Shown here piece by piece: positions 5,074 through 7,122 of a DNA stretch of 35,989 bases. Position 1 is the first letter of the stretch. The number at the start of each line of letters is the position of its first letter. The position numbers were made by a program, and so were the translations under genes. Origin of the DNA: an uncultured beta proteobacterium (GTDB taxonomy: Bacteria > Pseudomonadota > Gammaproteobacteria > Burkholderiales > Burkholderiaceae_B); NCBI GenBank assembly GCA_903958565.1, contig CAJBTJ010000244.1:1-35989 (forward strand). The letters run 5' to 3'. A model generated the notes under the pieces. That model was not told where the DNA came from. It saw only the letters and a list, made by a program, of their open reading frames with translations, and did not search any database.

Positions 5074-5165
5074 TTCCACATATTGGCGGGGCAGGCTGGC
5101 CCCATTTTGGTGCTTTGCTGCCTCTAAACTTGCGCTTAGCCTCATTTTGTGTTCGACTACGGCTT

Positions 5166-5306
5166 ATGAACGCAACGATCGCGGGCCCTGCTCGCTCCCT
5201 CGCAAACCACAAGGCCTCTTCAGGCCTGTGTGTGCTCGTGCGTGGCGACTGCGCTGTAACGGCTGGCCTACAGCCGCTACTACTAGCGATCGGTTGCCGG
5301 GCCTAG
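5166..5306 (+). CDS. Putative leucine leader peptide upstream of leuA (46 aa; start codon uncertain)
   Basis: ORF MNATIAGPARSLANHKASSGLCVLVRGDCAVTAGLQPLLLAIGCRA*; CTA-CAG-CCG-CTA-CTA-CTA at 5268-5285; followed by strong hairpin and C-rich tract before leuA. Confidence 0.5.
   Translation: MNATIAGPARSLANHKASSGLCVLVRGDCAVTAGLQPLLLAIGCRA
5208..5230 (+). promoter_or_regulatory. Leader stem-loop CAC(A)AGGCCT-cttc-AGGCCTGTG
   Basis: 6-bp perfect stem extended by 3 bp across one bulged A, tetraloop CTTC. Confidence 0.45.
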
Positions 5307-5329
5307 TGCCCCGTGGCAGTCCGGCAACC
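5292..5329 (+). promoter_or_regulatory. Perfect 9-bp stem (GGTTGCCGG...CCGGCAACC) overlapping the leader-peptide stop codon; candidate attenuator element
   Basis: GGTTGCCGG 5292-5300 is the exact reverse complement of CCGGCAACC 5321-5329; no T-tract follows, but 5325-5357 has about 19 C and 3 G. Confidence 0.55.
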
Positions 5330-5451
5330 ACCCGCCACCTTGCAGTACCCCACCCCATTAAAAATTTCCGATAACGGATCGTTGGCTGAAACCAACACTA
5401 GACTGCAGTGATGTTCGCCCATCGCTGCGTCATGCAAAGAAACTGAGGACC

Positions 5452-7122
5452 ATGATGCTTTCGAATCCAGCCACCAAATACATCCCATTCAAGCCATTCG
5501 AGCGCGACTTTTCTGAGCGCACTTGGCCAACCAAGCGAATCACTCACCCTCCCGTGTGGATGAGCACAGACTTGCGAGATGGCAATCAGTCGTTGATCGA
5601 GCCCATGAGCGTCGAGCGCAAGCTGCGCTTTTTCAATATGCTGCTCAAAATTGGCTTTAAAGAAATCGAGGTTGGATTCCCCTCGGCATCACAAACCGAC
5701 TTTGACTTTGTCCGCACACTTGTTGATGACAAGCTGATTCCTGATGACGTCACCATTATCGCGTTGACGCAGGCGCGACCAGAGTTGATTGCGCGCACCG
5801 TTGAGTCCGCTGCGGGTGCCAAGCGCGCAATGATTCACCTGTACAACGCGTGTGCCCCAGGCTTTCGCCGCATCGTGTTCAACATGAATCGCGAAGAGGT
5901 CAAACAAGTCGCAACTGAAGGCACGCAATGCGTCATGGACAACATGGCGAAGTATCCACAAACAGAGTGGCTCTACGAATACTCACCAGAGGTATTCAGC
6001 ACCACGGAGCCTGACTTTGCACTCGAGGTCTGCAACGCCGTGACCCAGGTGTGGAAGCCAACGCCACAGCGCAAAATTATTTATAACTTGCCCGCAACGA
6101 TTGAAGCGACCACGCCCAACATGTATGCCGATCAAATCGAATACATGCACAACAATCTTAACAAGCGCGACAGCATTGTCATCAGCTTGCACCCGCATAA
6201 CGACCGCGGCACAGCTGTCGCTGCAGCCGAACTGGGCTTGATGGCCGGCGCAGATCGCGTTGAAGGCTGCCTGTTTGGTAACGGCGAACGTACGGGTAAC
6301 GTCGATATCGTTACGCTCGCTTTAAATCTTTACACCCAAGGGATTCATCCAGGCCTGGACTTCTCCGATATCGATGAGGTCCGTCGTTGCGTAGAATTTT
6401 GTAATCAGTTGCCTGTTCATCCACGTCACCCTTACGCAGGCGACTTGGTCTTCACTGCATTTTCGGGCTCACACCAGGATGCCATCAAGAAAGGCTTCGC
6501 TGTGCAGAAAGCCGATGCCATCTGGGAGGTCCCCTACCTGCCCATTGATCCGGCCGACCTGGGTCGCAACTACGATGCGGTGATTCGAGTCAACAGTCAG
6601 TCCGGTAAAGGAGGGGTGTCCTATCTGCTTGAACAAGAGCATGGACTGGCCTTGCCACGTCGTCTACAAATCGAATTCAGTCGCGCAATTCAACGCGTGA
6701 CCGATGAGACCGGTCGCGAAGTGACGGCCGCCGATGTCTACAACATCTTTAATACAGAATATCTAACTCAAACCAAACCTTGGTCACTGATCAAGCATCG
6801 TATTACTGGCGACCCGTCGGCCGCCGAGGGACAACACTTCACAATTGAGGTTGAGTTCGACGTTGACGGTAAGCGTCGCGCCCTCACGGGAACAGGAGAC
6901 GGCGCAATTTCAGCTTTCGTCAATTCGTTAGGTGAGCCCGTACGCATCATGGATTACCATGAGCACGCGATTGGCACAGGAACGGATACGCGCGCTGCAT
7001 GCTACGTTGAAGTTCGCATCGGTGACGCACCAACAGGCTTTGGCGTAGGGATTGATCGCGACATTGTGACGGCTTCTTTTAAAGCGGTTCTGAGCGCACT
7101 GAATCGTCACCTGAAAAACTAA
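5452..7122 (+). CDS. leuA: 2-isopropylmalate synthase (long LeuA form)
   Basis: [55 protein letters not shown]-terminal regulatory domain; SD-like gagg upstream. Confidence 0.97.

Follow-up and report, generated by a model that had tools for sequence, protein, structure and literature searches.

A conserved leader lies upstream of leuA in Alcaligenaceae and Cupriavidus and, as judged from sequence comparison, occupies this position wherever its surroundings can be checked. We analyzed it in a 35,989-nucleotide stretch of DNA (hereafter the window; GC content ~54%) from an uncultured betaproteobacterium, whose family is Alcaligenaceae and whose genus is probably Zwartia in the GTDB sense. The initial annotation of this stretch had proposed a leucine-sensing leader open reading frame with an all-CTA leucine block and a perfect hairpin, but no poly-U terminator, ahead of leuA. 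The comparative data support such a leader, with selected CTA codons, a conserved hairpin, no U-tract terminator, and a fixed association with leuA. We lean toward the view that the element is a cis-acting, leucine-responsive, and ribosome-mediated leuA leader, in which a ribosome at the CTA codons leaves a pseudoknot intact and the off-state most likely involves Rho. Neither the pseudoknot, nor the probable leaderless start, nor the kinship with the actinobacterial LEU element was part of that annotation.

Layout and distribution of the leader

All features of the locus are on the + strand. A terminator-like hairpin of the upstream gene (5088–5110; GGGGC-AGGCTG-GCCCC-ATTTT) parts that gene from the leuA unit. 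Downstream lies a predicted promoter (5130–5158) with a −35 element TTGCGC (5130–5135), a −10 element TCGACT (5153–5158), and an extended −10, TGTGT (5148–5152), within the 17-nt spacer. The leader open reading frame (5166–5306) begins with an ATG 7 nt past the −10 and encodes a peptide of 46 residues, MNATIAGPARSLANHKASSGLCVLVRGDCAVTAGLQPLLLAIGCRA. It includes a hairpin (5208–5230; CACAAGGCC-tcttca-GGCCTGTG) and a block of leucine codons (5268–5285; CTACAGCCGCTACTACTA) with CTA at 5268, 5277, 5280, and 5283. The last of these, the sensor codon (5283–5285), is 6 nt ahead of the stem P1, formed by GGTTGCCGG (5292–5300) and CCGGCAACC (5321–5329), and the leader stop TAG (5304–5306) is inside the P1 loop. 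The stop codon is also flanked by an inner stem, P1b (5299–5311; GGGC 5299–5302 / GCCC 5308–5311), which competes with the top of P1. A candidate second helix, P2, pairs GTGGC (5313–5317) with GCCAC (5334–5338). The 3′ arms of P1 and P2 overlap a C-rich, G-poor tract (5325–5357; 19 C, 3 G, 8 A, and 3 T), a putative Rho loading site. The gene itself, leuA (5452–7122), encodes a 2-isopropylmalate synthase of the TIGR00970 / NF002991 type. The leader at this locus is far beyond chance, and its RNA has a better fold energy than dinucleotide shuffles (z = −4.1, matched by 0 of 200). The first description agrees with the letters throughout in its stems, codons, and base counts: the four leucine codons of the block are all CTA, the 9-bp stem and the two stems further upstream (5208–5230 and 5260–5276) are present, the base count of the tract is reproduced, and nothing terminator-like is found on the + strand between 5110 and leuA.

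The start of the leader had to be revised. It had been placed at TTG 5115, which we rejected because the promoter lies downstream of this codon; the likeliest start is ATG 5166, just 7 nt after the end of the conserved promoter. An invariant TTGC...TRTGnTYGACT precedes the leader ATG among relatives, corresponding to TTGC-N17-TYGACT with an extended −10. Of 128 relatives, 97 have the motif TNGACT 6, 7, or 8 nt ahead of an in-frame ATG; of the 529 ATGs of the window, two are preceded in this way. Because the leader ATG falls 6–8 nt past the −10, this promoter geometry predicts that transcription starts at or beside the ATG, yielding a leaderless mRNA. The leader peptide varies from 39 to 68 residues across the betaproteobacterial leaders, and its stop is TAG in 124 of 128 family members. 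In three leaders (L108, L076, and L064), TCG replaces the TAG and the stop is found a few codons downstream, with P1 and P2 kept.

The distribution of the leader was defined at three levels. Within the genus of the window, leuA is present in 31 of 32 genomes, and all readable leuA upstream regions have the same leader, with a peptide ending in LLLAIGCR[A/T/S] in all but a few and the nucleotides YGYCCCGTGGC.GTCCGGCARCC...GCCAC after the peptide end. Within the family, a covariance model built on the 96-nt leader core from this single genus matches 168 of 201 Alcaligenaceae genomes, representing 39 of 43 genera; it also matches a few genomes of other Burkholderiales families. Finally, a pattern scan of named genomes returned, among the matches listed, Achromobacter, Bordetella, Cupriavidus, Pusillimonas, Castellaniella, Pigmentiphaga, Pelistega, Lautropia, Pollutimonas, Candidimonas, Paralcaligenes, and Zwartia. 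A LeuA signature follows within 700 nt of the leader in 113 of the 118 distinct pattern matches listed, which are all of those with enough flank; the other five lie at sequence ends. One family member (G064/L148) lacks the leader, and its LeuA is merely 58% identical to that of the window; taken together, these two observations suggest that its leuA was replaced and that leader and resident leuA move together. A leuA of the same type without this leader is also found on two records of ~13–14 kb listed as plasmids, p2Vster of Vitreoscilla stercoraria (NZ_CP091514.1) and pVA681-14 of Klebsiella pneumoniae (NZ_CP093469.1).

The sensor codon and the structures around the stop codon

The initial annotation let its reading stand or fall with conservation of the CTA block in relatives, and the outcome is decisive: of 128 distinct family members, 127 have CTA and one has CTT at the codon that precedes the stem by 6 nt. 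The same codon is CTA in all 118 of the named matches listed, found with a search pattern that left this codon free. We took the genes of the window and the leuA genes of relatives as the baseline for CTA usage. The codon had been expected to be rare in a GC-rich genome, which is accurate for the relatives' leuA genes, where CTA accounts for 1.0% of leucine codons (26/2507), but too strong for the window, which has ~54% GC and in which CTA is merely uncommon (7.5%; 73/977). Codons −3 and −5 are held as leucine (codon −5 in 126 of 128, with CTA, CTG, CTC, and CTT all occurring) and codon −7 is mostly leucine, whereas the residues at −4 and −6 vary freely among Leu, Tyr, His, Gln, Arg, Ser, and Pro. 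Since leucine is held at fixed positions between variable codons, selection acts on the leucine codons there and, at the last position, on CTA itself. This pattern of conservation indicates that the leader very probably lets a ribosome gauge the leucine supply.

The structures past the sensor codon are equally constrained. P1 displays covariation, with four pairs altered on both sides, and P1 and P2 together have 99% of cells paired, a combination that neither any of 500 shuffles nor any slid version attained. P1b is paired in 87.5% of cells, with moderate covariation support. P2 (GTGGY/GCCAC) is pairable in 128 of 128 family members, 127 of them at the counted register and one shifted by an inserted base, and its 3′ arm lies 4–11 nt past P1. 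Taken alone, the five pairs of P2 are no better than shuffles (165/500 for the window), and they lack covariation inside the family because the helix is nearly invariant; the case for P2 comes from conservation and from analogy with other lineages. P1 and P2 can pair as an H-type pseudoknot with the leader stop in the P1 loop, and we predict that this fold forms.

Other stems have a narrower range. Of the two upstream stems described at first, that at 5208–5230 shows compensatory changes at four of five core pairs in the genus (alignment columns 68–83), and that at 5260–5276 is unconserved beyond the nearest relatives. The latter and a CGCTA/TAGCG hairpin spanning the CTA codons extend at most across the genus, because the sensor codon is followed by CCG in half of the family; both were set aside as general components. 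Also rejected was an alternative that RNAalifold suggested for the genus, in which GCCAC pairs with a TGGC further downstream: across the remaining family it exceeds expectation only weakly (49 observed versus 36.6 expected). In the genus alignment (columns 220–223 / 280–283; window 5334–5400), the GCCA of P2 could pair with a conserved TGGC ~55 nt downstream, which adjoins a hairpin, GTTGG..CCAAC.

A model for leuA control and its alternatives

The favored model proceeds in two branches. Transcription would start at or beside the leader ATG, allowing a ribosome to engage the 5′ end of the RNA immediately, translate the 46 codons, and meet the CTA codons that need a leucine tRNA reading CUA. 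When the charged tRNA is scarce, the ribosome would wait with the last CTA in its A site, which puts the first P1 pair 6 nt ahead, at the mRNA entrance. This spacing is that known for frameshift-stimulating pseudoknots, in which the pseudoknot sits at the mRNA entrance of the ribosome. Owing to the 6-nt spacing, P1 and P2 would stay folded under leucine shortage and mask the P1 3′ arm, GCCAC, and the first part of the C-rich tract, and leuA would be expressed. With ample leucine, the ribosome would reach the TAG in the P1 loop, melting P1 and covering GTGGC; the C-rich tract would be exposed just past the end of translation, and elongation toward leuA would be cut short, most likely by Rho. 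P1 could also refold after release at the stop codon, which would hide the tract again.

The choice of Rho is a guess that follows from the lack of an intrinsic terminator before leuA in 126 of 127 leaders. Rho loads on C-rich, G-poor RNA. The 30 nt after P1 have 39% C and 15% G, compared with ~33–38% C and 23–25% G in the flanking coding DNA; the tract after P1, which overlaps P2, is C-rich in nearly all relatives, and its C enrichment is moderate. Folding of the leaders in two ribosome states gave a slight mean change of +0.06 in the exposure of the C-rich tract, with an increase in 112 of 127.

Control could alternatively be translational, with the leader gating the ribosome binding site of leuA, as has been proposed for the LEU element of Actinobacteria. 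The two systems have the same leader and pseudoknot architecture, and a duplex between leucine codons and the Shine–Dalgarno (SD) sequence was found in Microbacterium. In the 127 betaproteobacterial leaders, however, complementarity between the leucine block and the leuA SD resembles that of shuffles (median 0.605 as good), the predicted SD accessibility is alike with a stalled or a terminated ribosome (0.50 versus 0.48), and the spacer is inconstant in length (61–182 nt). We therefore view this explanation as unlikely. The mechanism first put forward, in which the left arm of the hairpin lies under a ribosome stalled at CTA, with loss of the hairpin under starvation and altered access to a Rho site, draws on a CTA block, a hairpin, and a C-rich tract that are all present. 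It is less probable still because the stem begins 6 nt past the sensor codon family-wide, and with standard ribosome geometry the stalled ribosome would abut P1, held at the mRNA entrance, rather than cover it.

Nascent-peptide arrest at the stop codon, as in TnaC, would account for the strong conservation of the peptide C-terminus (the LLL[AP]IGCRA tail) and of the stop position. The conserved tail, however, coincides with the P1 5′ arm, and the exceptions hold the pairing and alter the peptide (GGRA, GYRA, GRRA, GCWASR, and moved stops). Compensated P1 changes turn GCR into GGR in one leader (L087) and into GYR in another (L088). As P1 is compensated while the peptide is altered and stops are displaced or changed, selection acts on RNA pairing and not on the peptide tail, and arrest by the peptide is very improbable. 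A conserved RNA without a leucine response, such as a stability or processing element, would fit the nucleotide-level conservation of much of the core, yet it is the least credible reading, leaving the conserved leucine codons between variable ones, the exclusive use of CTA, and the fixed frame unexplained.

Kinship with other leuA leaders

The closest known counterpart of the leader described here is the actinobacterial LEU element, which is located upstream of leuA and combines leucine codons, a pseudoknot, and a proposed pairing between the leucine codons and the leuA SD (Seliverstov et al. 2005, PMC1262725). Mutations in the Streptomyces coelicolor leuA leader, according to the account cited in PMC1262725, had some effect, in a manner inconsistent with classical attenuation. 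In S. lividans, the leader peptide leuL1, MRFGLLLLSCRGEGL, is supported by RNA-seq and is encoded on a leaderless transcript with no typical terminator (PMC8079986). The betaproteobacterial leader resembles the LEU element in its position upstream of leuA, its short open reading frame with a leucine run, its pseudoknot topology, a stem 3–6 nt past the last leucine codon with the stop in the loop, a peptide end of the form LLL..GCR or CR, and, with reference to leuL1, a predicted leaderless start and the lack of a typical terminator. It differs in having no stem that joins the leucine codons to the leuA SD, in using CTA instead of CTT/CTC, in a longer peptide (39–68 versus ~12–16 residues), in an entirely unlike P2 sequence, and in phylum (Alcaligenaceae and Cupriavidus versus Actinobacteria). 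Because the SD stem is present in Microbacterium and absent from the betaproteobacterial family, we describe the window element as one that would work in a LEU-like way and do not class it as a LEU element.

The same arrangement recurs in other leaders. The leuA leader peptides of Nocardia, Microbacterium, Nonomuraea, and Tsukamurella end in ALLLGCRGGV, GLLLLSCRDESSD, and similar sequences. These actinobacterial leaders are the published LEU element (PMC1262725). In these four genera, as well as in Sinorhizobium, Rhizobium, and Shinella of the Rhizobiales, leucine codons are followed after 3–6 nt by a GC-rich stem with the stop in its loop; the P2 candidates differ in sequence from that of the window and are GACCGGC/GCCGGTC in Nocardia and Tsukamurella and GAGGAGC/GCTCCTC in Sinorhizobium. 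We tentatively raise the possibility, which we hold with considerably less confidence than the model for the window leader, of a terminator-free attenuator class common to Actinobacteria, Alphaproteobacteria, and Betaproteobacteria. In such a class, a rare sensor codon would lie a few nucleotides before a pseudoknot that encloses the stop, a waiting ribosome would leave the knot intact and the transcript protected, and the off-state would result from Rho or from lost coupling.

The classical leuL attenuator of E. coli and Salmonella shares the consecutive rare CUA leucine codons in a leader peptide ahead of leuA. The CUA leucine codons of the Salmonella leu leader have reportedly been the subject of rare-codon work. 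The window leader differs from leuL in lacking an intrinsic terminator or an exclusive terminator/antiterminator pair, in preceding a different LeuA type, and in having no detected sequence similarity: Rfam searches of the window and ten related loci, including Leu_leader and using gathering as well as permissive E-value thresholds, returned nothing relevant. Rho-dependent leader attenuators, such as E. coli tnaC and the suggested Mycobacterium cys leaders, also have a leader open reading frame, no intrinsic terminator, and C-rich RNA after the stop; the window leader differs from them in its predicted pseudoknot around the stop, and the role of Rho is a conjecture here.

The LEU element, described in 2005, combines leucine codons and a pseudoknot with the lack of a terminator and with ambiguous mutant data. 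A betaproteobacterial counterpart without the stem between leucine codons and SD separates the essentials (sensor codon, spacing, and pseudoknot at the stop) from lineage-specific parts, and it opens the mechanism to experiments in tractable hosts such as Cupriavidus; transcription start sites of C. metallidurans have been reported (PMC7563307). Although the element is kept across Bordetella, Achromobacter, Cupriavidus, and relatives, we found no report of it in the open-access literature searched, and Rfam has no entry for it or for the LEU element.

Two further sets of leaders were encountered. Five leuA leaders (L113, L162, L166, L168, and L169), found on a Sphingomonas plasmid and in several further genomes of the phylum, have CTT CGA CTT and then a long perfect stem that holds the stop codon, and their peptides end in LLRLTRP or similar (CGCCCTTAGGCG); they form a related but distinct leader type. 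Three leuA genes (L111, L156, and L193), one of them from Burkholderia, have different leaders that contain CTA codons too, in the motifs CTA CGA CTA CTA GCC CGC and CTA TCG CTA CGT CTA.
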